Virus record (IMG/VR): IMGVR_UViG_3300044712_000427
Span: 1-38,291 of that record
From: a virus
Direction: 5' to 3' (one strand)
Length of the DNA stretch: 38,291 bases
A program made the translations under genes and the position numbers. The notes under the pieces are model-generated. The model saw only the letters and a program-made list of their open reading frames with translations. It was not told the DNA's origin and made no database searches. This document shows positions 1 through 38,291 of this stretch, one piece after another. Each line of letters starts with the position of its first letter. The first letter of the stretch is position 1.

Positions 1-127
1 CAAGCGGTCATAAAACATTGGGGTTTAATTTGTTATTCAAACTTTGTACCCCGTGCAAAGTTCGGTTTCGGCTGATAGGTTCGTGGCTCGAAATTCCCAA
101 CGATTTTATACCGCCAGCCGTTAGCAA
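1..127. repeat. 127-bp contig-end copy of 32209-32335
   Basis: Identical over exactly 127 bases to 32209-32335 and then diverging (ATAT here, CAAG there). Together with the 127-bp match at the other contig end it indicates a k=127 assembly overlap at a repeat, not a natural short terminal repeat: the two contig ends match internal sequence, not each other. Confidence 0.9.
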
Positions 128-129
128 AT
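1..129 (-). other. attC-like recombination site (5' part cut by contig start)
   Basis: Read on the minus strand, a core box GCTAAC (120-129 on plus as GTTAGCAAAT) follows the stop of the 132-467 gene. A hairpin arm GGCGGTATAAAATCGTTGGG follows, then a spacer of about 75 nt, then the opposing arm near 3-24. Bases 1-127 are identical to 32209-32335, where the complete site ends in the second core GTTATATACC. The core GTTAGCAAAT is the inverted copy of ATTTGCTAAC at 476-485, so the two bracket the gene between them. Seen in sequence: arms and cores. Inferred: integron-type attC. Confidence 0.6.
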
Positions 130-131
130 AT

Positions 132-467
132 TTAAGAGCCAATAATATCGTCAAGTTGTTTATGAAATTTTAAAGTAGCCTCTAAAAATTGCATAACTTC
201 TAAATTTTTATTATTATCAATAATATCAACTATTAAAATTTTTGAGGCTTCGAGTTGACCTGAAATATTCGTTATTTTGTTTTTAAGTTTTTTAAAATCG
301 TTCATTGTTAATAAAGGGCATTTGGTATGAACTCCTAAAACAATACCTCTATTATCTAATTCGCAATTAAGCCTACTACACCATAATTTTCCGTTTTTGT
401 CTTCGTTGTAATTAGTGTAAAATTCTGGACATTGCTTACAATAATTTATCTCTGCTAATCTTTTCAT
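132..467 (-). CDS. small Cys-rich protein in a cassette
   Basis: 111 aa, ATG start at 467. The N-terminal 55 residues hold a cysteine cluster: CKQCPEF, then WC, then CEL and KCPLL. This could bind a metal, but no family name can be given. The C-terminal half is predicted helical and Lys/Leu-rich. The CxxCP...WC...C pattern resembles the 64-aa product of 34099-34293, so the two may be diverged relatives. The gene is bracketed by a 10-bp inverted pair (ATTTGCTAAC 476-485, GTTAGCAAAT 120-129), the arrangement of a gene cassette with its own attC. Function unknown. Confidence 0.75.
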   Translation of the reverse strand: MKRLAEINYCKQCPEFYTNYNEDKNGKLWCSRLNCELDNRGIVLGVHTKCPLLTMNDFKKLKNKITNISGQLEASKILIVDIIDNNKNLEVMQFLEATLKFHKQLDDIIGS

Positions 468-475
468 AATAAAAC

Positions 476-607
476 ATTTGCTAACACATTACAGAAGCAA
501 AGCGGGGCAATGTGGTTTGTTAATATTTGTGTTCTTTGTTACTTTTCATCGGTTGATACATTCGCAACTTCTAAACCCGCTCTGCTCCTGTAATCACCGT
601 TACCTGC
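476..607 (-). other. attC-like site between the 607-897 and 132-467 cassettes
   Basis: A long imperfect hairpin fills the gap. The arm ATTACAGAAGCAAAGCGGG (488-506) opposes CCCGCTCTGCTCCTGTAAT (576-594), matching 16 of 19 when reverse complemented. The cores on the minus strand are GCAGGTAAC just after the TAG stop of the 607-897 gene and GTTAGCAAAT just before the 132-467 gene. Size and layout fit attC. The strand-specific core pair argues against a simple terminator, and no U-run follows the hairpin. Confidence 0.65.
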
Positions 608-897
608 TATTTTAAATAACGTACTTTGACAATTGACCCGTTAGGCATAAATGCTGGCACAGGTACATAGGTTATTGAATTGCCGTGATACCCACATTCA
701 TAACATCCACCGCCATCACATCCAGTGCAAGTGTGCGAATATTTATATGGATACGATAATTCACCATTCCACTCTTCCCATTTATGTCTTCTATCTAATT
801 TTAGTGTTTTTACGGCATGTTCAACAGAATCAAAAACATCAGGTAGCACAGTATTAGCGTTATTGCCGTTTTCGTGGTTATTTGAAGTATTTTCCAT
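607..897 (-). CDS. small zinc-finger-like protein with cassette leader peptide
   Basis: 96 aa, ATG at 897. Residues 1-18 are a hydrophilic leader ending NNANTVL; the body carries CTGCDGGGCYECGYHG, a DnaJ-type CxxCxGxG-like cysteine cluster that could bind zinc. The leader DNA is similar (21 of 25 nt) to the leader of the 28198-28770 gene. The cassette core lies inside the gene at the V-L codons (GTGCTACC, 842-849 on plus), and its partner core GTTACCTGC follows the stop at 599-607. The start codon therefore lies within the upstream attC-like hairpin (849-961). Molecular role unknown. Confidence 0.7.
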   Translation of the reverse strand: MENTSNNHENGNNANTVLPDVFDSVEHAVKTLKLDRRHKWEEWNGELSYPYKYSHTCTGCDGGGCYECGYHGNSITYVPVPAFMPNGSIVKVRYLK

Positions 898-974
898 TTT
901 ATTAAATGTTTAGTAAATTGATAATTAAGTGGTTTCTAATCGGCAACAAACGCCAATACTCAAACGTTGCCATA
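842..974 (-). other. attC-like site containing the start codon of the 607-897 gene
   Basis: Minus-strand arm GAGTATTGGCGTTTGTTGCCG (941-961) opposes CGGCAATAACGCTAATACTG (849-868). They pair over about 20 positions with two mismatches and one bulge. The 72-nt spacer (869-940) contains the ATG at 895-897, and the 3' arm encodes residues 10-16 of that gene. Cores are GGCAAC near 966-971 and GTGCTACC at 842-849; the second is a degenerate GTT core. Same layout as the sites at 32573-32716 and 33372-33507. Confidence 0.55.
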
Positions 975-8495: not shown

Positions 8496-9539
8496 TTAAG
8501 CTTGACGAGATTTTTGTATTTCTTCAAAAATGCCTGCTGTAATTTCTTCAATTTTTGAAGTAACAGGTTTAACCATTGCATTGCCAGCGTTTGGTTGTGT
8601 TCCTTTAGCTGGTTTGTGAGAGCTTGAAATGCTTGCCAATGAAGCTTTCAATGCATCAACTTCGGCCATTACTGGTTTAATTAATGCGCTTACAGCAGCC
8701 ACTATTTCTTCGGTTGTAGCTTGCATTTCAACAGGAGCAACTTCAACGGGTTTTAATTCTGTAATTGTATCACCTACAACTACTATTTTACGCCCATCTG
8801 CTAATTCGTATTCGCCGTCTTCAAGCTTCATGGCTCCAAGAGGCGCGACCTCAACACCTACAGCTGGCAATTCTGCATTGATAAGCAAATTACCTTCTTT
8901 AAGTGCGAGAACATTCATGACCAAGGGTTCGGGTTTTCCGGCCTTGGCAAAAGGATTTTTTAACATTTTCTGTTCTAGTTTAGTTAATAATATATTATTT
9001 ATTTTGCCTTGTGCCTCTTGTATGTAAGCACTTGCAGCGATTTTCATGTTTGATTGTGAAATTGAATCAATAAATTTATAATTTAAGGCTTCGTCCGGAC
9101 TCATCCAGTCTGAGGCTTTCATTATATTTTTTATGTCTTCGTCTTTTAATCCGGTCTTTTCGCGGTAAATCTTTACCATAATAGCATCGGTTTTTGCCAA
9201 ATCAGAAGCCGCTTTTTGCATGTCATACACATTCCCAGTCACTTCTTTCCAACCATTATGTATAAGGAATAAAGCATTATCTGACATAGTAACTTCGTCG
9301 CAACCTAAAGCTATTACTGTACCTGCACTAGCTGTAAGACCGACAATATTTGCAACGCATTTTTTAGGATGAAGTTTGATTAAATCGTGAATGAGCAACC
9401 CGGTGGCTAAATCACCGCCAAGAGTGGCAATATCAAATTGAATTTCGTTTTCTTTGTTTTGATTGAGAAACGACCTTACCGAGTCAACAGTTATCCCTCC
9501 TTCTTCACCAACGCCGTTAAATAGTTGAAATTTTACCAT
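8496..9539 (-). CDS. ClpP-type prohead protease fused to scaffold-like tail
   Basis: 347 aa from the ATG at 9537-9539; an in-frame TTG at 9557 falls in a terminator U-tract and is rejected. Residues 1-165 are a ClpP/S49 serine protease: ATLGGDLATG, catalytic Ser71 in GLTASAGTVIALG, His94 in FLIHNGW, then KASDWMSPDEALNYKFID. Residues from about 190 are Ala/Val/Glu-rich with a coiled-coil segment (EIVAAVSALIKPVMAEVDAL), as in protease-scaffold fusions that guide capsid assembly and are then removed. Confidence 0.88.
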   Translation of the reverse strand: MVKFQLFNGVGEEGGITVDSVRSFLNQNKENEIQFDIATLGGDLATGLLIHDLIKLHPKKCVANIVGLTASAGTVIALGCDEVTMSDNALFLIHNGWKEVTGNVYDMQKAASDLAKTDAIMVKIYREKTGLKDEDIKNIMKASDWMSPDEALNYKFIDSISQSNMKIAASAYIQEAQGKINNILLTKLEQKMLKNPFAKAGKPEPLVMNVLALKEGNLLINAELPAVGVEVAPLGAMKLEDGEYELADGRKIVVVGDTITELKPVEVAPVEMQATTEEIVAAVSALIKPVMAEVDALKASLASISSSHKPAKGTQPNAGNAMVKPVTSKIEEITAGIFEEIQKSRQA

Positions 9540-9563
9540 GATGTAAAATTGTTTCAAAAAAAA

Positions 9564-9605: not shown

Positions 9606-9803
9606 TTATTTTACTAAATCATTAAAAATTGTTCTTTCTGAAACTGCAAATATTTGGCAAAGAGCATTAATAGTATCAGATGTATTTCTACAATTTTCTA
9701 ATCCTGTCGCCAAATCTCTCAACTGAATAGCAGCGGCCTTTTGGTTTGTAAAAGCTAATTTGCAGAATTGCGATCGTATCTTTATGTTTTTATCTCTTTT
9801 CAT
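9606..9803 (-). CDS. small helix-turn-helix-like protein
   Basis: 65 aa, basic N-terminus (MKRDKNIKIRSQFCKLAFTN), ending with a plausible HTH: DTINALCQIFAVSERTIFND resembles the turn and recognition helix of small phage DNA-binding proteins. The start overlaps the tape measure stop by 4 bp. In this position it may regulate late genes, but a structural or chaperone role is not excluded. Confidence 0.55.
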   Translation of the reverse strand: MKRDKNIKIRSQFCKLAFTNQKAAAIQLRDLATGLENCRNTSDTINALCQIFAVSERTIFNDLVK

Positions 9804-26293: not shown

Positions 26294-26342
26294 CATTTAT
26301 AAAGATATGTTATACTTTTATGGCATTTAGCAACTAGTTATA
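26294..26342 (-). repeat. 49-bp conserved array 3' flank
   Basis: 44 of 49 bases identical to 31778-31826 (and to the copy at 38185-38233). On the minus strand it begins with the cassette core TATAAC, contains TTGCTAAA and GTATAACATAT, and ends at an ATG. It immediately follows the last cassette of each array, so it may be a half-attC or an array anchor. Confidence 0.65.
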
Positions 26343-26347
26343 GCCAA

Positions 26348-26698
26348 TTAAAGCACCGAATCATAATTAGTGCCTCTATCGTCATAATCCCATTTAGAAT
26401 CAAGCTCATAATATTCTTTTTTTGATTGGTGGTATTCGATTCCTTTTTGCAATTCTTTAATTTGAGAATTAAGTTTATCTATTTTATTTTGCCTTTGCTC
26501 TGAAATGTATTTTTGTGCATCATTAAGCGTTTCAAAATATCTATCTGAAGTCATAGATAAGCATACCCTCCAATTATACTCCGTACCAGCACTACGCAAA
26601 GCCCTAACAAATGCGTAACTATCAGTTAATTTAACGCAATCCCTTTCCCATATTCTAACTAAATCATCCTTTACAATATATACTTTAAAAAACTCCAT
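26348..26698 (-). CDS. cassette gene, coiled-coil hypothetical protein
   Basis: 116 aa, MEFFKVYIVKDDLVRIWERD. Small alpha/beta N-terminal half followed by a coiled coil (NKIDKLNSQIKELQKGIEYH) and an acidic C-terminus (WDYDDRGTNYDSVL). Bracketed by the best cassette core pair in the window: TTAACTGGCTATAAC (26709-26723) and GTTATAGCCAATTAA (26337-26351), 14 of 15 complementary. Function unknown. Confidence 0.7.
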   Translation of the reverse strand: MEFFKVYIVKDDLVRIWERDCVKLTDSYAFVRALRSAGTEYNWRVCLSMTSDRYFETLNDAQKYISEQRQNKIDKLNSQIKELQKGIEYHQSKKEYYELDSKWDYDDRGTNYDSVL

Positions 26699-26714
26699 AT
26701 CTATAAAATTAACT

Positions 26715-26806
26715 GGCTATAACACACGGTATAAAACATGCCGTGACAAGCCTGTATATAATCTGAAACATTCTACATCGGCACGTTTCATACCGCCAAC
26801 GTTAGC
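26715..26806 (-). other. attC-like site
   Basis: Minus-strand order: core GCAGCTAAC (the TAA stop of the 26802-27176 frame is inside it), arm CGGTATGAAACGTGCCG (26795-26779), spacer, arm CGGCATGTTTTATACCG (26743-26727), core GTTATAGCC. The 17-bp arms match at 15 positions. Total about 92 bp, in the attC size range. Confidence 0.68.
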
Positions 26807-26853
26807 TGCGATAACAAATAGCCTGCTTCAACGAATAGATTCTCATTGCTCCA
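26798..26853. repeat. shared cassette 3' end (copy 1)
   Basis: 51 identical bases with 28194-28244, then one mismatch and four more matches. It encodes the C-terminal MRIYSLKQAICYRS of two otherwise unrelated proteins and includes the attC core GCTAAC. Confidence 0.9.
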
Positions 26854-27176
26854 GTAAGTAAGCAGTAATCTTTAGCGTGTTTTTCAACTACTGTTAAATA
26901 ACCATAAGGCACTTCAACAACCTTTGCCCCATACTCAATACATTTTAGCGTGTTTTGGTGCATCTCTTTACGTTTTGCACAAAATATTGTAGCTTTTTTA
27001 TTTACGCTTTGGCAGTAAGCAGATAAGGCTATTTGAAAGCCACCATAAACAGGCGAAGCATAAACATATTCCAAATCATCCCCAATTATTGAAGGTATTA
27101 AAATTGACTTTGTGCCTCCAGTTAGTAAATCATCTCTCAATATATTCACTCCTTTGTGTTGCTCTATTGTTATCAT
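26802..27176 (-). pseudogene. truncated PLP-fold protein with a foreign C-terminal tail
   Basis: 124 aa. Residues 1-110 resemble the N-terminal third of a phage-borne PLP-dependent fold-type II enzyme (ACC deaminase/threonine dehydratase style): LRDDLLTGGTKSI with the expected lysine, YASPVYGGFQIALSAYC, KATIFCAKRKEMH, EYGAKVVEVPYGYL. Full-length relatives are about twice as long, from general recall. After CLLTGA the frame runs into MRIYSLKQAICYRS, identical to the nuclease gene's end at 28198. Best read as a 3'-truncated chimera; probably not an active enzyme. Confidence 0.65.
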
Positions 27177-27177
27177 C

Positions 27178-28041
27178 TTATTGTTTTTTAAATATTAATA
27201 CGTTTTCGTGAACTTTAGTTAATTTGCCACCAGCTTCAAATATTTTACCAGCCCTTAACATTGCAGTTCCTAAAGGTTGCAATAAAATAGCTTCATTGTA
27301 TAAACCAGCACCAGCATTTATAAAAGCCAGTTTTGTATGGCTTATAAAATCTCTATAAAAGCCCTTTTTATCCCTAATATCTCCAACCACAAAACAAGCA
27401 TAACCACCGCCTTTTAATTTAGCCACTGCCTTTTTTATTATTTCAGCATACACTTTTATAAATTCGTTGTATTCCATTGTGCTTAAATCTTCTTTCATTT
27501 CGCTGTAAACTTCCAAATCAGCATAAGGTGGGCAACTAAAAACTAAATCATACATAGGTATTAATTCCGTTAAAACAACATTACTATCCCCCACATAATA
27601 TTGTGGTTGCCTGTTTACTGGTAATAGTTTTATTGCTTGTTCTCTATTGCTATCTATTTGCTCCTGCCTTATATCTATTCCAGTATAATTATAGCCTAAA
27701 TAATTAGCTACAATTCCACGAACCGAGCCACCAGCAAAAGGGTCAAGTATCGTTCCATTTTCAGGACAATACCAATTATAAATAAGTTCACATAATGCAG
27801 GGTCAAATATTGACACTTCTGGCATTGATTTTCTGCCATATTTATCGCCATCAAATGAATTATTTATTACAACAACTCCTTCTCTACCTAAATGGCTTTC
27901 AATACCAAGTTGTTTCCATTGGCGTTTTCTTGTTTGCCAACTACCACTCTTTGTGTCTAATACGCTAAAAGGCGGCTCCATAAATTTGTCCCTTAACAGA
28001 ACATCTTTTACAATTTCGTTTCCGAATAAATCTACTTCCAT
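27178..28041 (-). CDS. DNA methyltransferase (N4-cytosine/N6-adenine type)
   Basis: 287 aa. AdoMet motif I ILDPFAGGSVRGIVANYLGY, followed by YTGIDIRQEQ, and catalytic motif IV FSCPPYADLEVYSE (CPPY), the signature of amino-methyltransferases. N-terminal EPPFSVLDTKSGSWQTRKRQ is typical of phage DNA modification methylases. No partner nuclease of a restriction system is adjacent, so it probably protects phage DNA. It is the first gene of a two-gene cassette; the second is broken. Confidence 0.85.
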   Translation of the reverse strand: MEVDLFGNEIVKDVLLRDKFMEPPFSVLDTKSGSWQTRKRQWKQLGIESHLGREGVVVINNSFDGDKYGRKSMPEVSIFDPALCELIYNWYCPENGTILDPFAGGSVRGIVANYLGYNYTGIDIRQEQIDSNREQAIKLLPVNRQPQYYVGDSNVVLTELIPMYDLVFSCPPYADLEVYSEMKEDLSTMEYNEFIKVYAEIIKKAVAKLKGGGYACFVVGDIRDKKGFYRDFISHTKLAFINAGAGLYNEAILLQPLGTAMLRAGKIFEAGGKLTKVHENVLIFKKQ

Positions 28042-28102
28042 ATTTTCTATTTTTTAATGATTTAATGATTAATTCCCACCGCACAAAAAATTAAAACAAA
28101 CA

Positions 28103-28202
28103 GCGTATAACACGGGTTTTGTGCAATTTGCCCTATTAACTTTCTGCTATAATTTGAGCGTTTGTGCAAGGGCAAACTGACACAAAGCCCGAAAACGTTA
28201 GC
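28103..28202 (-). other. attC-like site
   Basis: Minus strand: core GCAGCTAAC, arm CGGGCTTTGTGTCAGTTTGC (28191 downward), short spacer, arm GGGCAAATTGCACAAAACCC (28133-28114), core GTTATACGC (28111-28103). The arms pair over about 21 bp with two mismatches and a bulge. It separates the nuclease cassette from the methyltransferase cassette. Confidence 0.68.
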
Positions 28203-28249
28203 TGCGATAACAAATAGCCTGCTTCAACGAATAGATTCTCATTGTTCCA
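28194..28249. repeat. shared cassette 3' end (copy 2)
   Basis: 51 bases identical to 26798-26848. Here the encoded tail follows RYEIARLGT smoothly and looks native to the nuclease protein, so this copy, or a relative of it, is the likely donor. Confidence 0.9.
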
Positions 28250-28770
28250 AGTCTCGCTATTTCGTAGCGTTCTTTTTCTGACCATTTATAGTCAAATAAT
28301 TTTTTGGGTTTTTTTGCTTGATAAAATTTCCTTACTCCCGGATATTCATACTTAGCTAAAACCCATAATCCGCAAAAATCAGGAATTATTTCTAATGCGT
28401 ATTCTTTCAATTGTTCAGGCACGGCATAGTAGAAATATTTAAACTTACCATAATATCTTTCAAATCCAGTCTTACCGTTGTGCATTTGTTCAAACTTACA
28501 ATGTTGCGGTTTTTTAAAATCTGCTTTCAAATCTGATTTGCTTACTTTGATTTCAAAACCGTAAGCATAAAGGCTGTTTGTAAGTACAAGCATATCGGTT
28601 TCGAAAGGCAATAAACACATCATGTTTGTAATGTTTGGGACTATTAAGTTTTGCCTGAAATTAAATTCTTTCATAATAGCCAGTTCAATATCCAAACAAG
28701 TTACCGCAGCTAACACAGTATTTGCGTCATTGGCGGTTACGTTCTCGCTGGATAGGTTATCGGTTTTCAT
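28198..28770 (-). CDS. MmcB-like PD-(D/E)XK nuclease in a cassette
   Basis: 190 aa. Core ETDMLVLTNSLYAYGFEIKV SKSD gives the D...ExK catalytic pattern of PD-(D/E)XK nucleases; YYGKFKYFYYAVPEQLKEYA and IPDFCGLWVL match the MmcB/DNA-repair nuclease style. The leader (MKTDNLSSENVTANDANTVL) resembles that of the 607-897 gene. Cassette cores CGCAGCTAAC (28705-28714) and GTTAGCTGCG (28197-28206) are a perfect 10-bp pair, with the 5' one inside the ORF at codons VLAAV. Probable role in DNA repair or host DNA degradation. Confidence 0.7.
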   Translation of the reverse strand: MKTDNLSSENVTANDANTVLAAVTCLDIELAIMKEFNFRQNLIVPNITNMMCLLPFETDMLVLTNSLYAYGFEIKVSKSDLKADFKKPQHCKFEQMHNGKTGFERYYGKFKYFYYAVPEQLKEYALEIIPDFCGLWVLAKYEYPGVRKFYQAKKPKKLFDYKWSEKERYEIARLGTMRIYSLKQAICYRS

Positions 28771-28812: not shown

Positions 28813-30600
28813 TTAAAATGGTTCTATTTCGTTTGTCGGCATGTAATCAAATTCTTTATTTGTCTCAATAGTTCTGTTAATATTAATTATTTCTTCAATA
28901 ATTGGCTCATTAAATTTTATTGGTATTTCATCTGCCGTTTCGAAATATTGGTTTTTTGAAACAGAATAATACATGTCAATTTCGCCAGGTATACCTACAA
29001 GTCTTTGCTTTTTTATTTTACCTATAATTATTCTAACCGTATTATCTGACGGGTTCGATTTTCTAAAAGGTCTCCAAACTGCAATTACATTATCTGATTT
29101 ATCCGAGAAAGTCCCGCCTCCTTTAATTTTGTAAGTGTCAGGTTGTGGGTAGTTTTCTTTTCCTGAGAACATTGGAGTTACTTGATGGGCCACAAGATGC
29201 ATCGAAATATCATTGTCAACAGCGAACCTTTTTAAAGTTGACATGAATCTGCTAATGTAAAGGTCCTCTCTCTCTCCACGCTCCATTAAATGCTCTATCT
29301 GATTGTAAGGGTCAATAATGCAAGAGTTAACGCCATACTTTCGAATTAACCAACGCATTTTTGAAAGTATTGTTTCTAAATGGTAGTTTTCATCCGGAAT
29401 TATTGCGTAAAAATGTTCGTGAATATAGCTTGCAGCCTCATTATATTCTTTTTCGGTCATAACATTGTTATATCTTTTATCTGTTGACTTTCCAACATAG
29501 CAATGTATTAGCTCGTCATAATATTCTCCGACAGGGTAATTTTCAGGACTAAAAACCGCAAACTTCCAATTCTCCGCCTTTGCCTTATTAATACATAAAT
29601 TTGCTAAAAAACAACTTTTGCCTTCGTTATTATACCCGGTCCATATGTTTACATCTCCACCCCTCCACTTCCAATGCTTGTCAAATTCTTTGAAGTAAGT
29701 CGTTGTTCCAAACTTCTTACCATTTCGAAATGTATTTATCATCGAGTCCCATGTTTGAGCTAAAAATATAATACCATCCATTGGTATTTCTTTTGCTTCA
29801 GATATGGTCCTGCCTAATTCTTCTTTACCAAATGACACAAGATATTCATTGGCATCTTTTTTGCCTTTAAAATCAATCAAAAGACATCTTTCAGCCCCTA
29901 TTCTACGAATCAACTCATCTCTCAATAACATACCAGGTTCATCGGTATCAACTGCTATATATACTTTCTCAATCCTTTCAAGTTCATCAAAACAATTATC
30001 TAAAAATTGAAAATTCTTAGCTCCGTTCGGAACAGATAAAACATTTCGTATACCTACTTCAAAATAGCTTAATGCGTCAATTTCTCCCTCAACTATTACA
30101 GCTTCTTTACTATCTTTAATCGAATCTATGTTGTAAAAAATTAACTCAGCATCCTTGTAAATCTTAAATGACTTTTGCGGACCGCGATATTTTATGTTAA
30201 TTAATTCGTCATTTCGAAAATAATTAAAATGAATAGTATCGACTTCTTTGTTAAATTGTGGCATCCAATCGAATCCGGTTGTTATTTTCATTTGTCTAAG
30301 AGTGAATTGACTTATTCCTCTATTTTCAAAATACTTTACAGCCTTATCTGATAGGTCCGTATTATTTTGCCATTCGGGCCTAATGTATTTCTTTTCTTCA
30401 ATCTTAACTTTCTGAATATAAAAAACAGCTCCGCAATTAAAACACATTCCAGTTTGTTTATCATGATTCCAAGAAAGGCATTTATCAGTTTTCTTTTTTC
30501 TGGTATGTGAACAAGCCGGACAAAGTATTTGTTCCTCACCTCTGAACTTTCTGAGGTCCACATTTATTTGTTCGCCAGTTTGCTTATTAGTTATTTTCAT
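28813..30600 (-). CDS. primase-helicase (DnaG-type zinc finger, TOPRIM, DnaB-like helicase)
   Basis: 595 aa, T7 gp4-style bifunctional replication enzyme. Zinc-binding: Cys27, Cys30, then Cys53 and Cys56 (CPAC...CFNC). TOPRIM: VIVEGEIDALSYF with Glu171 and AVDTDEPG with Asp218/Asp220. RecA-like helicase: Walker A GYNNEGKS (322-329), FSPENYP (H1a-like region), Walker B CIIDPYNQIEHL, VAHQVTP and a PQPDTYKIKGGGTFSDKSDN segment. Synthesises primers and unwinds DNA at the fork. Overlaps the replisome organiser gene by 4 bp. Confidence 0.93.
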   Translation of the reverse strand: MKITNKQTGEQINVDLRKFRGEEQILCPACSHTRKKKTDKCLSWNHDKQTGMCFNCGAVFYIQKVKIEEKKYIRPEWQNNTDLSDKAVKYFENRGISQFTLRQMKITTGFDWMPQFNKEVDTIHFNYFRNDELINIKYRGPQKSFKIYKDAELIFYNIDSIKDSKEAVIVEGEIDALSYFEVGIRNVLSVPNGAKNFQFLDNCFDELERIEKVYIAVDTDEPGMLLRDELIRRIGAERCLLIDFKGKKDANEYLVSFGKEELGRTISEAKEIPMDGIIFLAQTWDSMINTFRNGKKFGTTTYFKEFDKHWKWRGGDVNIWTGYNNEGKSCFLANLCINKAKAENWKFAVFSPENYPVGEYYDELIHCYVGKSTDKRYNNVMTEKEYNEAASYIHEHFYAIIPDENYHLETILSKMRWLIRKYGVNSCIIDPYNQIEHLMERGEREDLYISRFMSTLKRFAVDNDISMHLVAHQVTPMFSGKENYPQPDTYKIKGGGTFSDKSDNVIAVWRPFRKSNPSDNTVRIIIGKIKKQRLVGIPGEIDMYYSVSKNQYFETADEIPIKFNEPIIEEIININRTIETNKEFDYMPTNEIEPF

Positions 30601-31292
30601 CGGTATTCTTCTTTAAGTTCAGCTAGGTAATAATGAGTGGATAAATTTTGTTTTGATTGTTCTTTATTTTCATCTTTAAACCAAACAGATTGAGCTTTTT
30701 GCTTCCAATTTTTAACTATATTTCCTTTACTATCTTTCCATTCGGCAACTGAATAGTATTTAAAGAATTTTATAGAACTTTGCTCAGTATATCCGTTTTC
30801 TGTAAAATATAATCTTACTTCTTCAATTGTTGGATATACTATGTTCTTTTCTTTCTTTACCTTCTTAGGATTCTTAGTATTCTTTAGTTGTTGTTGTTCG
30901 TCTGTTAGCGGCGTGTTAGCGGCGTGTTGTTCGCCTGTTAGCGGCGTGTTGTTCGCCTGTTGGTTATCTTGGTATTTATCATAATTACAGACAGTTAACC
31001 GTGTTGAATATTGTAACCCTTCTACAATAATCATATTATCAGACTCAAGTAATTTAAAAAACGACCTTACATTTTGTAAGGACCAAACAAATTTATTTGC
31101 CCAACTTTGTAAAGATAAAAGACTTTGACCTCTTAAACAATCATATAACTGTCCTTTTATCAAAACTTTTTTATCTTCATAATTAACTGTAAATAAGATT
31201 GTTTCCCATGCCTCTCGTTTTGTTAATGGTCTATATTCATCACAAAGCCAATGGTCCAAGAAGGACCGATGTAATTTTATCCATCCTTCCAT
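30597..31292 (-). CDS. replisome organiser/DnaD-like replication initiation protein
   Basis: 231 aa. N-terminal winged-helix style region (GWIKLHRSFLDHWLCDEYRP LTKREAW; SLLSLQSWANKFVWSLQNVR) typical of phage replication initiators, then a linker with a duplicated unit (NTPLTGEQ, NTPLTDEQ), a Lys-rich stretch, and a C-terminal helical domain (YPTIEEVRLYFTENGYTEQS; WKQKAQSVWF). It probably binds the origin and loads the helicase encoded next to it. The linker repeat follows DNA tandem repeats at 30903-30962. Confidence 0.8.
   Translation of the reverse strand: MEGWIKLHRSFLDHWLCDEYRPLTKREAWETILFTVNYEDKKVLIKGQLYDCLRGQSLLSLQSWANKFVWSLQNVRSFFKLLESDNMIIVEGLQYSTRLTVCNYDKYQDNQQANNTPLTGEQHAANTPLTDEQQQLKNTKNPKKVKKEKNIVYPTIEEVRLYFTENGYTEQSSIKFFKYYSVAEWKDSKGNIVKNWKQKAQSVWFKDENKEQSKQNLSTHYYLAELKEEYR
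30903..30962. repeat. tandem repeat in replisome organiser linker
   Basis: TTAGCGGCGTGTT and GTTCGCCTGTTAGCGGCGTG units recur two to three times. They encode the Thr-Pro-Leu-Thr linker repeats. Such repeats in replication protein genes can act as origin iterons; here the linker function alone explains them. Confidence 0.6.
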
Positions 31293-31632: not shown

Positions 31633-31777
31633 CAGGTTTTTTTAAAACCTTAATTTCTTAATGTTGGTCGTAGTCAACAATGCAAATATTGCTAAATTCA
31701 ATTAAATATTACACAATTTCATAAATAATTTATACAATATAATTTATTTTAACAATACTATATATTTGTATTTTAGG

Positions 31778-31826
31778 CATTTACAAAAATATGTTATACT
31801 TATATGGCGTTTAGCAATTAGTTATA
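31778..31826 (-). repeat. 49-bp conserved array 3' flank
   Basis: Second copy of the element at 26294-26342 (44 of 49 identical). On the minus strand it ends at ATG followed by CCTAAAATACAAATATATAG, the start of the 37969-38187 gene, which here breaks off after eight codons and stops soon after. Confidence 0.65.
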
Positions 31827-32169
31827 TACCACTTAAAGAAAGTTCCTCGCCTGTAAGTGCATAGTATAAATTTTGTAGTTGGTGAGCAAAATGAATTTCG
31901 GCAATCCATGTTTCAGTTTCACCAAAATAAACCTGACCTTCTACGCTAATTATAAATTCGCCAATATGATAATAACCTACAGTCCCTTCTTCTAAACCAA
32001 ATTTAATAAGCCAGCCTTCATTTAATTTAATCGGAACGGCTTGCCATGTAGTAAGGCATTCAAAGTCAAATACAATATTCCCTGACCTTAATAGCTCAAG
32101 TACCTTAATTACTTTATTTGAATATTTTTCTATAAAAACATTCCCTATTCTTAATTCATTTGCTTTCAT
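31822..32169 (-). CDS. cassette gene, conserved Bacteroidetes phage protein
   Basis: 115 aa, MKANELRIGNVFIEKYSNKV ... WLIKFGLEE ... FAHQLQNLYYALTGEELSL. This is a recurrent small protein of Bacteroidetes phages and mobile elements (N-terminal NELRIGN, C-terminal HQLQNLYxALTGEEL), function not established. The cassette boxes GTTATATACC (31821-31830) and GGTATATAAC (32200-32209) are a perfect 10-bp inverted pair, extending to 14 of 15. A second copy exists at the contig ends. Confidence 0.8.
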   Translation of the reverse strand: MKANELRIGNVFIEKYSNKVIKVLELLRSGNIVFDFECLTTWQAVPIKLNEGWLIKFGLEEGTVGYYHIGEFIISVEGQVYFGETETWIAEIHFAHQLQNLYYALTGEELSLSGI

Positions 32170-32199
32170 ATATTTTTGTTTAAATAATTAATAATAAGC

Positions 32200-32337
32200 G
32201 GTATATAACAAGCGGTCATAAAACATTGGGGTTTAATTTGTTATTCAAACTTTGTACCCCGTGCAAAGTTCGGTTTCGGCTGATAGGTTCGTGGCTCGAA
32301 ATTCCCAACGATTTTATACCGCCAGCCGTTAGCAACA
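32200..32337 (-). other. attC-like site (complete copy)
   Basis: Minus strand: core TGTTGCTAAC, arm GGCGGTATAAAATCGTTGGG, spacer of about 75 nt, arm CCCCAATGTTTTATGACCGC, core GTTATATACC. About 135 bp. Copy at 1-129. The arms match at 17 of 20 positions. Confidence 0.7.
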
Positions 32338-32341
32338 AGCA

Positions 32342-32623
32342 TTAAAACGGCGTTGGTACTTCTGGACAATCTGGAAGCTCTTGCCATGCGTAAATATATT
32401 CAGGAATTTTTAAATCTGAATCATTTGCATAGCAATCTTTCATATAATCTCTTGTTTCAAGTGAGCCAATCCATTTTTTGCCGTTCCAAAATCCCTGAAT
32501 TGGCTTCTTGTCGTATTTATATGCAATTAACACTTCTTTATTAACTTCTGGCAGTTCAGGTAAAAAATGCCAGTTGCTAACAACAGGTATATTCAATTGC
32601 GGTTTTTGTGTTTCTTTTGCCAT
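32342..32623 (-). CDS. cassette gene, DUF551-like protein
   Basis: 93 aa. WHFLPELPEVNKEVLIAYKY, GFWNGKKWIGS and YIYAWQELPDCP match the WxxLPxxxxxVLV...W...VxxWxxLP pattern of DUF551-type phage proteins, function unknown. The first 15 residues (MAKETQKPQLNIPV) are encoded inside the upstream attC-like hairpin. Core GTTGCTAAC (32573-32581) lies in the ORF and pairs with GTTAGCAAC (32328-32336), 9 of 9. Confidence 0.75.
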   Translation of the reverse strand: MAKETQKPQLNIPVVSNWHFLPELPEVNKEVLIAYKYDKKPIQGFWNGKKWIGSLETRDYMKDCYANDSDLKIPEYIYAWQELPDCPEVPTPF

Positions 32624-32716
32624 TTGTTCTCGTATTTAAGTTATTACTAATTTGATAATTCCGTGCTTCGTAGTCCGCAACTGAAATATACCTGCGGACG
32701 TTGTGTGCAATTTTGC
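32573..32716 (-). other. attC-like site containing a start codon
   Basis: Minus-strand arm CAGGTATATTTCAGTTGCGG (32696-32677 region) opposes CCGCAATTGAATATACCTG (near 32602-32584): 17 of 19 pairs with one bulge. Between the arms lie the ATG at 32621-32623 and the first codons of the DUF551-like gene. Cores: CACAAC (32705-32700) and GTTAGCAAC (32581-32573). Confidence 0.65.
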
Positions 32717-32717
32717 C

Positions 32718-32978
32718 CTAAGCATACCACACGCATTCACAGTCTGTGCATTTATCGGCATCTGGCCCCCATGCAATAATATTTCTACTATAACAATTAG
32801 GGCAAAACTGTCCGCTTCGCCACACAACATGCGGTATACGCAATTTTTTTAACTCCGCTTCTGCAAAATCACTAAGTTTCTGCTTACCAAATATTGGGGC
32901 CACTTGTCCATGTATCTCTTTATACCAATGGTCTGCTATCTTATTAGCTATCAACCTTTCTATTTCTTTTGTTTTCAT
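32718..32978 (-). CDS. two-part protein: helical N-terminus plus cassette-borne zinc ribbon
   Basis: 86 aa. Residues 1-50 (MKTKEIERLIANKIADHWYK ... KKLRIPH) are helical; residues 51-86 are a zinc ribbon, CPNC...CTDC. The cassette core CACACAAC (32821-32828) falls exactly between the parts and pairs with GTTGTGTG (32700-32707). The mobile unit would therefore be about 120 bp and encode only the zinc ribbon, with the N-terminal domain inside the upstream attC-like site. Confidence 0.7.
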   Translation of the reverse strand: MKTKEIERLIANKIADHWYKEIHGQVAPIFGKQKLSDFAEAELKKLRIPHVVWRSGQFCPNCYSRNIIAWGPDADKCTDCECVWYA

Positions 32979-33035
32979 ATTCGTTCTATTTATCCGTTAA
33001 AAAAACATGACGCATACCGCCGTCCGTTAGCGGGC
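32821..33035 (-). other. long attC-like site enclosing 50 codons
   Basis: Minus-strand arm GGCGGTATGCGTCA (33021-33008) opposes TTGCGTATACCGCA (32843-32830): 11 or so pairs. The spacer holds the ATG and first 47 codons of the 32718-32978 gene. Cores: GCCCGCTAAC (33035-33026) and GTTGTGTG (32828-32821). The weakest hairpin of the set but with matching cores at both ends. Confidence 0.45.
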
Positions 33036-33434
33036 ATTTAAAATCACCGCCTGATAGTTTTGTACAGCTTGATACTTTTTTACTGCCTTATAAAATTTCT
33101 TCCAGTTAGAAACCTGTCCATTAGTTGTTATATTTTGCAATATTTCTTCTGCTGCATATAAGGCATCTGATTTAGTCTGTAATTGTTTTAAAATATACAA
33201 TATTGCTTTTATCGTATCTCCTTCAATTGTCAAATACTTAGGTTTATAAATTTGCTTTACTGTATCGGAATTTGTCGAATATGGAGCATGTAAAATCAAT
33301 TGAAATTCTGGTTTTGGTAAAGAATCGGCATTTATAAATTGAATTTTTTGACCAAATGAAAATGAATAAACGCCCGCTAACAATGCACATAAGCAAAGCC
33401 TGGTTAAATACGTATTTAAAGTTTTGTTTTTCAT
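33027..33434 (-). CDS. cassette gene, secreted-type protein
   Basis: 135 aa from the ATG at 33432-33434; a longer frame uses TTG and runs through the attC. The N-terminus (TYLTRLCLCALLAGVYSFSF then GQK) is a Sec signal peptide with Q-rule end. The mature part is predicted helical (ILYILKQLQTKSDALYAAEE; NWKKFYKAVKKYQAV). Cassette core GCCCGCTAAC (33372-33381) lies inside the signal sequence at LLAGV and pairs perfectly over 10 bp with GTTAGCGGGC (33026-33035), where the stop codon also lies. Confidence 0.65.
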   Translation of the reverse strand: MKNKTLNTYLTRLCLCALLAGVYSFSFGQKIQFINADSLPKPEFQLILHAPYSTNSDTVKQIYKPKYLTIEGDTIKAILYILKQLQTKSDALYAAEEILQNITTNGQVSNWKKFYKAVKKYQAVQNYQAVILNAR

Positions 33435-33507
33435 ATTATTGTTATTTATAAATTGATAAAATAGTTCTTTGAAATCCGGCTCAGCGCATGTGCTGGACGT
33501 TATACGC
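33372..33507 (-). other. attC-like site containing a start codon
   Basis: Minus-strand arm AGCACATGCGCTGAGCCGG (33494-33476) opposes CCAGGCTTTGCTTATGTGCA (33403-33384). The ATG at 33432-33434 and 11 codons lie between the arms. Cores: GCGTATAAC (33507-33499) and GTTAGCGGGC (33381-33372). Confidence 0.6.
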
Positions 33508-33509
33508 AA

Positions 33510-33896
33510 TTAAAATGGCAAGTCATCGCCACTTAAAAGCATATTGATTTGAGATTTAATTTCATAAATCTGAATATCCATTACCTTTTTAGCTTGATTG
33601 CAATATAAATCCTTTTGCCTGTGCGTAAATCCAGTTTTATTTAAATCAAAAAGCATTTTAGCCGCTTCCAATTGAGCTATATTTTTTGAAATAAATTCTT
33701 TGAAATTTTTTCTCAGTTCAGCGAGTTTGTTTTTTTCTTCATTTAACAATCTATTTAAGTTGTTTTCTTTTTCAGTCCAGTCCTCTTTAAATTGTTGATG
33801 ACATGCCATTCTAAGTATATTTACTATTTTTTCGGCTTTTTCTCCTTCTACTCCATTATCGAGTAAAATATCTAAAACAGGTTCTTTTTTTAACAT
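33510..33896 (-). CDS. cassette gene, coiled-coil protein with SSB-like C-terminal tip
   Basis: 128 aa. Helical throughout, with a long coiled coil (KENNLNRLLNEEKNKLAELR) and a C-terminus LLSGDDLPF. The acidic DDLPF end is the interaction peptide of bacterial SSB proteins, bound by primase, RecO, PriA and others. Without an OB-fold this may be an SSB-tip mimic that recruits or blocks those partners (inference). Bracketed by GCGTATAAC (33926-33934) and GTTATACGC (33499-33507), 9 of 9. Confidence 0.7.
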   Translation of the reverse strand: MLKKEPVLDILLDNGVEGEKAEKIVNILRMACHQQFKEDWTEKENNLNRLLNEEKNKLAELRKNFKEFISKNIAQLEAAKMLFDLNKTGFTHRQKDLYCNQAKKVMDIQIYEIKSQINMLLSGDDLPF

Positions 33897-33925
33897 TGTA
33901 TTTATTTTAAAAATTAATAATAAAA

Positions 33926-34062
33926 GCGTATAACAACGGCTTATAAAACATAGGCGGTTCAGTGCGTTGCCAACTGTATCGCTCGTATCAAGTTCGGTGA
34001 CGTATGATAGTTTCGCGGCTTCGTATCGCCTACGATTTTATAGCCGCGTCCGTTAGCAAACA
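33926..34062 (-). other. attC-like site
   Basis: Minus strand: core TTTGCTAAC, arm CGGCTATAAAATCGTAGGCG (34046-34027), spacer of about 70 nt with its own small hairpins, arm CGCCTATGTTTTATAAGCCG (33956-33937), core GTTATACGC. The arms pair at 17 of 20. About 137 bp, close to the upper usual attC size. Confidence 0.72.
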
Positions 34063-34098: not shown

Positions 34099-34293
34099 TC
34101 AATTGTTTTCATAATCTTTTAACTTACAAAATTTAGGAAATTTACCGGCATACATTAAATCTAAATTATCGCCTTTTAGAATTTTTTCTTTAAATCCAGG
34201 CTTATTATAAAAAAACCAACGACAATACCAATTATCTTCGAATAAGTTAAGATAAGGGCACAATTGGCACATTTCTACTTTAATTATTTTCAT
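34099..34293 (-). CDS. small Cys-rich protein
   Basis: 64 aa. MCQLCPYL, WYCRWFFYN and FPKFCKLKDYEN: four Cys in a CxxC...C...C pattern that may bind zinc; similar layout to the 132-467 product. It overlaps the DnaA-like gene by 4 bp, so it belongs to the early operon, yet its 3' end abuts an attC-like site. It has no matching 5' core, so it marks the upstream edge of the array. Confidence 0.65.
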   Translation of the reverse strand: MKIIKVEMCQLCPYLNLFEDNWYCRWFFYNKPGFKEKILKGDNLDLMYAGKFPKFCKLKDYENN

Positions 34294-37968: not shown

Positions 37969-38187
37969 TTAATCAAATAACCAATCTGGATAGTTTGGAT
38001 ATTCTTTGTTTGTTTTTTCTTTATAATAAAAATCGTTTGCTTTATTTATAACTGCTATTTCTCCGCCTTCTCGTAACAAATTAACAGCGTTTACTTTATG
38101 TAATATTAAATAGTTCCAAGCTTTTTCGCAACGTAATGATATTTTTATTGCATAAACTTTTTTGCTATATATTTGTATTTTAGGCAT
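37969..38187 (-). CDS. hypothetical small protein at the duplication edge
   Basis: 72 aa, MPKIQIYSKKVYAIKISLRC ... NYPDWLFD. Its first eight codons lie inside the duplicated segment; the copy at 31758-31780 keeps only these before running out. The ATG is the one that ends the 49-bp conserved flank. This copy is intact and probably ancestral. Confidence 0.65.
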   Translation of the reverse strand: MPKIQIYSKKVYAIKISLRCEKAWNYLILHKVNAVNLLREGGEIAVINKANDFYYKEKTNKEYPNYPDWLFD

Positions 38188-38291
38188 TTACAAAAATATG
38201 TTATACTTATATGGCGTTTAGCAATTAGTTATATACCACTTAAAGAAAGTTCCTCGCCTGTAAGTGCATAGTATAAATTTTGTAGTTGGTG
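38165..38291. repeat. 127-bp contig-end copy of 31758-31884
   Basis: Identical to 31758-31884; the preceding base differs (G here, A there). Marks entry into the 578-bp duplicated segment at the contig end. Includes a third copy of the 49-bp flank (38185-38233). Confidence 0.9.
38229..38291 (-). CDS. partial second copy of the 31822-32169 gene
   Basis: Only the last 20 codons (HQLQNLYYALTGEELSLSGI) and the stop are in the window; the rest is expected across the contig junction, followed by the attC-like site at 1-129. Identical to 31822-31884 over the visible part. Confidence 0.8.
   Translation of the reverse strand, partial: HQLQNLYYALTGEELSLSGI

Follow-up and report, generated by a model that had tools for sequence, protein, structure and literature searches.

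The window analysed here (all 38,291 nt of the IMG/VR virus record IMGVR_UViG_3300044712_000427, positions 1 to 38,291) is a recombinase-less carrier of Bacteroidota integron-like cassettes on a contig with terminase and tail genes. It probably derives from a Bacteroidota phage, its cassettes belonging to an integron-like system that is at home in both the chromosomes and the phages of Bacteroidota. This reading rests on matches of a covariance model (R1) to the window, on chromosomal arrays lying 3' of a XerA-like recombinase and on whole-cassette differences among the Freya phages.

Cassettes and attC-like sites of the window

The window contains 10 attC-like sites, all on the minus strand and grouped in three clusters: an array at 31,758-34,062, a second cluster at 26.3-28.7 kb and a third that starts at 38.2 kb, spans the contig ends and stops at 1.0 kb. 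A preliminary description had recognized the first as a single five-gene array, which is correct as an array, yet represents only one of the three clusters. Its features are as follows:

31821..32209, minus strand: cassette, gene 1 (31822-32169); private pair GTTATATACC / GGTATATAAC
32200..32337, minus strand: attC-like site S5; scanner 15.4; R1 E=1.4e-19
32328..32581, minus strand: cassette, gene 2 (ORF 32342-32623); private pair GTTAGCAAC / GTTGCTAAC, 9 nt match
32572..32709, minus strand: attC-like site S4, contains gene 2 start codon; scanner 18.4; R1 E=1.6e-23
32700..32828, minus strand: short cassette, zinc-ribbon-like C-terminal part of gene 3; private pair GTTGTGTG / CACACAAC, 8 nt match
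32819..33035, minus strand: attC-like site S3, long loop, contains N-terminal part of gene 3; scanner 15.8; absent from R1 list; weakest of the five
33026..33381, minus strand: cassette, gene 4 (ORF 33027-33434); private pair GTTAGCGGGC / GCCCGCTAAC, 10 nt match
33372..33508, minus strand: attC-like site S2, contains gene 4 start codon; scanner 13.7; R1 E=1.2e-17
33499..33934, minus strand: cassette, gene 5 (33510-33896); private pair GTTATACGC / GCGTATAAC, 9 nt match
33925..34061, minus strand: attC-like site S1, upstream of gene 5; scanner 16.7; R1 E=1.8e-14

The inverted box pairs previously described (GTTATATACC, GTTAGCAAC, GTTGTGTG, GTTAGCGGGC, GTTATACGC) are present, the sites all point the same way, and, as also claimed, no IntI-type enzyme is encoded: the 38,291-nt window contains no tyrosine recombinase (no PF00589 match). 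The proposal that each gene is enclosed by its own pair holds for the pairs, but not for the enclosure of genes 2, 3 and 4, since their 5' boxes fall inside the annotated ORFs (32572-32581, 32819-32828 and 33372-33381, respectively). The start codons of these three genes sit between the arms of the preceding site. Likewise, the hairpin arms reported between genes exist, but those of the three sites of genes 2, 3 and 4 had been overlooked because they extend into the ORFs. Gene 1 is a member of a family common among Bacteroidota phages; beyond its last box lies no complete site, but a tail that is conserved at three places of the phage genome.

In a dedicated scan, the five sites of the array scored 13.7 to 18.4, against 0.08 matches of at least 13.5 per window, and none of at least 15, in 60 shuffled windows; when box partners were shuffled, the observed total was reached in 0 of 20,000 trials. 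Some single sites have one extra base in one arm. Folding energy was only mildly better than that of shuffles (z -0.2 to -3.7) and, discriminating weakly, was dropped as a site test in favor of a covariance model. An Rfam search of the array region returned only two chance-level snoRNA matches. Trained solely on 35 chromosomal sites from other Bacteroidota, R1 matched nine of the 10 window sites, S3 not being listed, all on the minus strand and with E from 1.6e-23 to 5.8e-9, and also found sites in Polaribacter phage P12002L. The absence of any model match, named beforehand as an outcome that would count against the array, was thus not what we observed.

The two other clusters, together with three candidate platforms (insertion sites), comprise:

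1..129, minus strand: site S5, second copy, truncated at contig start; 1-127 exactly equal to 32209-32335; R1 E=2.2e-16
120..485, minus strand: cassette, gene 132-467; private pair GTTAGCAAAT / ATTTGCTAAC, 10 nt match
476..608, minus strand: attC-like site between genes 607-897 and 132-467; scanner 19.7; R1 E=9e-13
841..972, minus strand: attC-like site before gene 607-897, damaged GTT box reading GTGCTACCTG; R1 E=7.2e-20
26294..26336, minus strand: candidate platform copy 3; 90% identity with copies 1 and 2
26337..26723, minus strand: cassette, gene 26348-26698; private pair GTTATAGCCA / TGGCTATAAC, 10 nt match
26714..26810, minus strand: attC-like site before gene 26348-26698; scanner 17.7; R1 E=5.8e-9
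28102..28206, minus strand: attC-like site before methyltransferase-like gene 27178-28041; scanner 18.0; R1 E=3.8e-12
28197..28714, minus strand: cassette, most of gene 28198-28770; private pair GTTAGCTGCG / CGCAGCTAAC; no recognizable site upstream
31758..31820, minus strand: candidate platform copy 1, conserved tail after last box; identical copy at 38165-38227
38165..38291, minus strand: candidate platform copy 2 and start of second g1 cassette, off contig end; exactly equal to 31758-31884

A length of 8-10 nt is still retained by eight private pairs. The g1 unit exists as two identical 578-bp copies at different loci of the window, indicating a recent event, although homologous recombination could also copy this unit. 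Conversely, the boxes at 28111, 841 and upstream of 28714 are damaged or partnerless, and the array may thus be fossil in part.

Chromosomal arrays and their recombinase

The recombinase found beside chromosomal arrays is a XerA-like tyrosine recombinase with NF040815 as best profile match, and homologues occur in 81 of the 247 Bacteroidota genomes sampled. An array adjoined the recombinase at 27 of 41 loci, and the gene also stands beside an array in genomes G005 and G007. Sites lie 3' of the recombinase in a nearly exclusive polarity (90 vs 1), the first box being located 69-125 nt past the stop codon in 21 of 26 loci, and genomes with the recombinase carry 8-33 sites (n=10) against 0-6 in ten genomes without it. 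The consensus of the 35 chromosomal sites has 19 pairs and one internal mismatch, with no conserved one-sided bulge or extrahelical base in its stem, these sites having been picked by a scanner tuned on the window, so that their pairing statistics are partly built in.

The array-side recombinase is ~42 residues shorter than VchIntIA at the IntI-specific insertion, the spacing at this position being 60-70 in 43 relatives vs 107. Its TIGR02249 score is below cut-off, and in three Bacteroidota genomes tested with this profile, among them Pelobium, no match exceeded the cut-off. TIGR02249 matches in two Bacteroidetes MAGs (G009 and G011) were dropped as candidate integrases for want of an adjoining array. 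In the recombinase tree, phage enzymes sit on long branches, and in three genomes checked the Xer-like genes of a more typical kind fall on a branch of their own. Taking the 5-nt-spacer orientation as canonical, with the platform upstream, was abandoned, the Pelobium array and the Freya junctions placing the platform on the opposite side. Cassette genes read away from the platform in hosts and toward it in phages, so that phages may maintain their own cassette pool.

Cassette gain in related phages and alternative readings

Polaribacter phages Freya_1, 2, 5, 6, 8 and 9, which encode a related recombinase of this broad type, differ by blocks of 842, 902, 472, 2891 and 307 bp. Every block junction falls at AAC|, the box beside a constant platform sequence that itself adjoins the recombinase gene. 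Breakpoints lying off the boxes would have contradicted the preliminary description; they lie exactly on them. Genome comparison shows that whole cassettes were gained in Freya exactly at the box next to the platform. Among these isolates, all of a single phage and from the same sea region, genes were gained one cassette or block at a time and at a fixed place. With respect to the last box, the window tails lie where the Freya platform does; their likeness to chromosomal platforms is confined to the AG|TT end, and a pattern search of IMG/VR for the tail sequence found none. The closest relative has cassettes at another locus; as the insertion there exceeds the two cassettes in length, it yields no exact breakpoints. 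Using the helicase as bait recovered only one distant relative, and the terminase 69 loci.

Each cassette is a small gene flanked by its own complementary box pair, adjacent cassettes being joined by an attC-like site whose arms can fold as a hairpin on a single strand. Taken together, the observations suggest a mechanism in which a recombinase of the XerA-like family would cut at G|TT, on the strand reading from the platform, and add or remove cassettes there. With three platform-like tails and no recombinase of its own, the window phage would rely on its host or on a co-infecting phage to provide the enzyme in trans, through which it may have acquired its small accessory genes. The latter would then be swappable cassettes at three places of the genome, and the phage's own cassettes would be mobile.

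Several other readings were weighed. The hairpins could be intergenic regulatory or terminator elements with no role in recombination, as their positions between short genes of one operon and their modest folding advantage might suggest. However, the private pairs join one end of a gene to its other end, not the opposite sides of a single hairpin, many genomes have the same sites next to a recombinase with a single polarity, and the Freya breakpoints coincide with the boxes, making this explanation highly implausible. It is also improbable that the phage took ordinary integron cassettes, as a CALIN, from a host integron with a standard IntI integrase. The box and arm layout is attC-like and IntI1 recombined a site of Polaribacter phage P12002L (Qi et al., PMC9892861), where R1 finds sites, but the TIGR02249 results, the missing IntI insertion of the array-side recombinase and the lack of a conserved extrahelical base in the consensus stem argue against it, as does the report of complete integrons in Bacteroidetes only from Salinibacter ruber M1 (PMC9024848).

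A less remote, though still rather unlikely, alternative is that the cassettes entered an ancestor through the system and are now immobile in the phage lineage, kept as ordinary genes. The lack of a recombinase in the window, the three damaged or unpaired boxes and the ORFs starting within sites are consistent with such fossil arrays, whereas the identical g1 units (which homologous recombination could also have copied) and the eight private pairs still measuring 8-10 nt speak against it.

Relation to known integrons and implications

IntI is the defining feature of integrons, and when its specific domain is required, a search reports almost none in Bacteroidetes (PMC9024848). In the window, tandem cassettes are separated by attC with R''/L''/L'/R' boxes, and ten attC-type sites, detected by the dedicated scanner and R1, stand on a virus contig devoid of integrase, as in CALIN. 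An IntI-domain integrase is lacking in the window and in the chromosomal-array recombinase alike, and the consensus lacks extrahelical bases on the R''-L'' arm. A platform that may correspond to attI is indicated by position in chromosomes and by breakpoints in Freya, the window having only similarly placed tails without a recombinase. For single-strand, structure-dependent recombination by the recombinase, the natural gain in Freya is an indirect hint. The earlier label of a CALIN-like phage array was therefore right about integron-type cassettes without recombinase, but its filing with ordinary integrons needs to change given the XerA-like recombinase, the bulge-free stem and the opposite gene directions of hosts and phages.

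Vibrio VCR-type IntI integrons share with this system tandem one-gene cassettes and private pairs, and probably also a platform beside a tyrosine recombinase and G|TT crossover, and Freya resembles them in that its newest cassette adjoins the platform. By contrast, the Bacteroidota recombinase lacks the ~42-residue insertion, the stem lacks conserved extrahelical bases, spacers are 5 nt instead of 1-3 nt, and in hosts the recombinase gene reads toward the array. Inverted integrons occur in other phyla. Xer proteins act at dif sites, where they resolve chromosome dimers, whereas the Bacteroidota recombinase gene adjoins hairpin cassette arrays. Its best profile match and domain layout nevertheless liken it to XerA / simple Xer (NF040815), among which an 'integron-like' subgroup is known (PMC8138268).

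Clusters of attC on phages have already been published as CALIN in virulent phages including Polaribacter phage P12002L (Qi et al. 2023, PMC9892861), sharing with the window attC-type cassettes, a lytic-type phage, the absence of recombinase, methyltransferase cargo and, in one case, a Bacteroidota host. That study treated the sites as classical attC, whereas the window sites belong to the family of chromosomal arrays with a non-IntI recombinase, and the window has three loci with a conserved tail. Freya_1 to Freya_9 (PMC8776804) share the site geometry of the window and genes directed toward the platform, but encode a recombinase beside the array, which was read as a sign of temperate life style, integrons being unmentioned (PMC8776804). 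The open-licence literature searched appears to hold no precedent for the recombinase without IntI domain, for the platform or for the flipped gene direction.

We consider it reasonably likely that Bacteroidota chromosomes and phages share a second kind of integron, with XerA-like recombinases devoid of the IntI domain, attC-like sites without conserved extrahelical bases, two polarities, a cassette pool proper to phages, and some phages with several platforms borrowing a recombinase. Folded DNA sites being alike in both, phages and bacteria appear to have in common an overlooked gene-capture system. This raises the question of how attC-like hairpins are recognized when both the IntI domain and extrahelical bases are missing. 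If the recombinase works as proposed, a large, unsurveyed pool of mobile genes would exist in a phylum dominant in soil, water and gut.

Sites and cassettes of the window phage

Almost all genes of this 38,291-base virus record lie on the minus strand, and they include a terminase, tail genes, a DnaB-like helicase and a DnaD-like loader. Read on that strand, the array region contains the five inverted box pairs of the preliminary description. The pairs themselves are confirmed. Three of the five 5' boxes, however, fall inside ORFs; arms overlooked at that stage sit immediately upstream of these three boxes. The attC-like sites of the main array are as follows.

S1, 33925 to 34061, minus strand
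S2, 33372 to 33508, minus strand
S3, 32819 to 33035, minus strand
S4, 32572 to 32709, minus strand: CACACAAC GTCCG CAGGTATATTTCAGTTGCGG ... CCGCAATTGAATATACCTG TT GTTAGCAAC; gene 2 has its start codon within the loop of this site
S5, 32200 to 32337, minus strand

Private pairs measure 8 to 10 nt in eight cassettes, and none of 20,000 trials with permuted partners attained the total that was observed. A first scanner, requiring AAC, an arm at most 9 nt away, a complementary arm and GTT, and nothing else, returned the attC-like sites as its top minus-strand matches, those of the plus strand being mostly mirror images of the same. With fixed spacers (3-7 nt after AAC, 0-4 nt before GTT), a stricter scanner gave the real sites 13.7 to 19.7 and found no score above 10.6 on the plus strand of the window; 60 dinucleotide-shuffled windows yielded 0.08 matches per window at 13.5 or more and none at 15 or more.

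Further cassettes were found beyond the main array, one group spanning 26.3-28.7 kb and another lying at the two contig ends. The window opens with 127 bases identical to 32209-32335 and closes with 127 bases identical to 31758-31884. Repeated 127-base ends of this kind are the expected product of an assembler using 127-base words that cuts a circle at a repeat, and the 578-bp unit 31758-32335, made of site S5, gene 1 of the array (31822-32169), the last box and the tail (the conserved sequence after that box, a candidate insertion site), therefore appears, from the contig ends, to be present at two places. The tail recurs, 90% alike, at 26294-26336 behind an unrelated cassette.

Several observations accompany these loci. 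A 61-nt stretch at the 3' ends of genes 26802-27176 and 28198-28770 (26793-26853 and 28189-28249) is 95% identical between them and contains the same box CGCAGCTAAC, while the rest of both genes looks unrelated. Downstream of a site of this second cluster, 27178-28041 is a DNA methyltransferase-like gene (N6_N4_Mtase), which fits the methyltransferases reported among phage cassettes by Qi et al. (PMC9892861). The small proteins encoded at 34099-34293 and 132-467 both contain cysteines and begin alike (CxxCP motif). A TTTGCTAAC-type box comes after each gene, and for 34099-34293 no 5' partner box is recognisable. Tandem 11-bp repeats (TGTTAGCGGCG, TGTTGTTCGCC) at 30892-30957, within the DnaD-like gene 30597-31292, happen to include the R' box-like GTTAGCGGC.

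Chromosomal arrays and their recombinase

A pattern combining S1 and S5 pointed to Pelobium manganitolerans, in which nine sites, all of the same polarity, lie beyond the 3' end of a tyrosine recombinase gene. Of 247 sampled Bacteroidota genomes, 81 contain homologues of this recombinase (E at or below 1e-50). At 41 loci, 90 sites of one polarity lie on the 3' side of the gene against one of the opposite polarity, and five lie on the 5' side. R1, a covariance model trained on 35 of the chromosomal sites, gave nine matches in the window, every one of them on the minus strand (rough E-values of 1.6e-23 to 5.8e-9), adding the earlier unrecognised site 841-972. Among twelve other phage loci it matched only Freya_9 and P12002L; other array-bearing viral contigs gave 45 matches. 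With at most 150 candidates scored per genome, ten recombinase-bearing genomes held 8 to 33 sites each and ten without it 0 to 6. Since the scanner, tuned on the window, was later used to choose the chromosomal sites, their 94.7% pairing and covariation score are partly built in; strand bias, gene side, co-occurrence and the window E-values of R1 suffer less from this.

The best profile of the recombinase is NF040815 (XerA), slightly below cut-off, and the integron integrase profile TIGR02249 gives a two-piece match, also below cut-off. Against VchIntIA (2A3V) two blocks align with about 42 fewer residues between them, and the KGxKDR-to-HxLRH spacing is 60-70 residues in 43 proteins versus 107 in VchIntIA; the insertion that defines integron integrases is therefore absent. 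Phage recombinases stand on long branches of the tree. The window itself, stated earlier to hold no IntI-type tyrosine recombinase, indeed gave no match to PF00589 or to the array-associated recombinase.

The first cassette box begins 69-125 nt past the stop codon of the recombinase gene in 21 of 26 chromosomal loci, and a TATA-containing stretch ending AG/TT, regarded as the platform, precedes it. Of 58 chromosomal cassette genes of at least 80 aa, 53 point away from the recombinase; those of phage arrays are oriented oppositely, toward the platform end.

Among the aligned chromosomal sites, the inter-box distance varies little (72 of 90 sites have 117-121 nt), with recurrent loop motifs such as GATTTCGAAGCAC and ACTGTCA. 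Three genomes (G010, G017, G070) also show R1-recognised sites grouped at a distance from the recombinase, either on separate contigs or at another chromosomal position. Several contigs (L247, L251, L256) end about 100-240 nt past the recombinase, as expected if array repeats interrupt assembly. A few recombinase relatives (L257, L259, L268), which may be prophages, have sites on the 5' side in a phage-like arrangement.

Cassette gain among Freya phages, and the nearest relative of the window phage

Six Polaribacter phages from one host strain, Freya_1, 2, 5, 6, 8 and 9, differ in the number of small genes directly before the integrase gene.

Array content of the Freya phages
Freya_1: junction of TGTTTACAAC with ACCCCTATAACAAC
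Freya_2: 842 bp more at the Freya_1 junction
Freya_5: an additional 902 bp beyond Freya_2
Freya_6: an additional 472 bp beyond Freya_5
Freya_9: Freya_5 plus 2891 bp
Freya_8: Freya_2 plus the same 2891 bp as Freya_9, plus 307 bp

Shared stretches of the compared array are identical, and the blocks adjoin a constant platform; the 902-bp block is present or absent independently of the others. The expectation that gain and loss breakpoints in other phages fall on core boxes is borne out here, every junction lying directly after AAC. In the Freya paper (PMC8776804) the integrase is read as pointing to a temperate life style, and integrons go unmentioned.

The nearest relative of the window phage, IMGVR_UViG_3300020045_005277, is colinear with it across window genes 17357 to 2970 (terminase identity 64%). 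It carries two cassettes with private pairs of 9-10 nt, flanked by homologues of window genes 9606-9803 and 8496-9557; in the window itself a 48-nt gap separates these two genes. Its inserted stretch exceeds the two cassettes, so this relative reveals different array loci, not exact breakpoints.

Proposed mechanism and implications

Integrase-less attC clusters in virulent phages, including Polaribacter phage P12002L, were reported by Qi et al. (PMC9892861), who found that IntI1 recombined 5 of 6 phage sites; with the R1 sites in P12002L, the "phage CALIN" is therefore already known. Our search of the open-licence literature found neither a Bacteroidota recombinase without the IntI domain adjoining such arrays nor its platform, nor the reversal of gene direction between hosts and phages, nor isolate-level cassette gain in Freya.

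In integrons, the private pair consists of the two halves of a cassette's own box, and our analysis suggests the same origin here. The recombinase probably binds the platform together with a folded single-stranded site and joins both at G/TT, so that, we propose, a circular cassette would enter beside the platform. Genes inserted in chromosomes would then read away from it. Phage platforms lie at an operon's 3' end, so only cassette genes directed toward them would be in line with phage transcription. This constraint on direction would separate the cassette pools of phages and hosts, and the window phage would borrow its recombinase from its host or from another phage.
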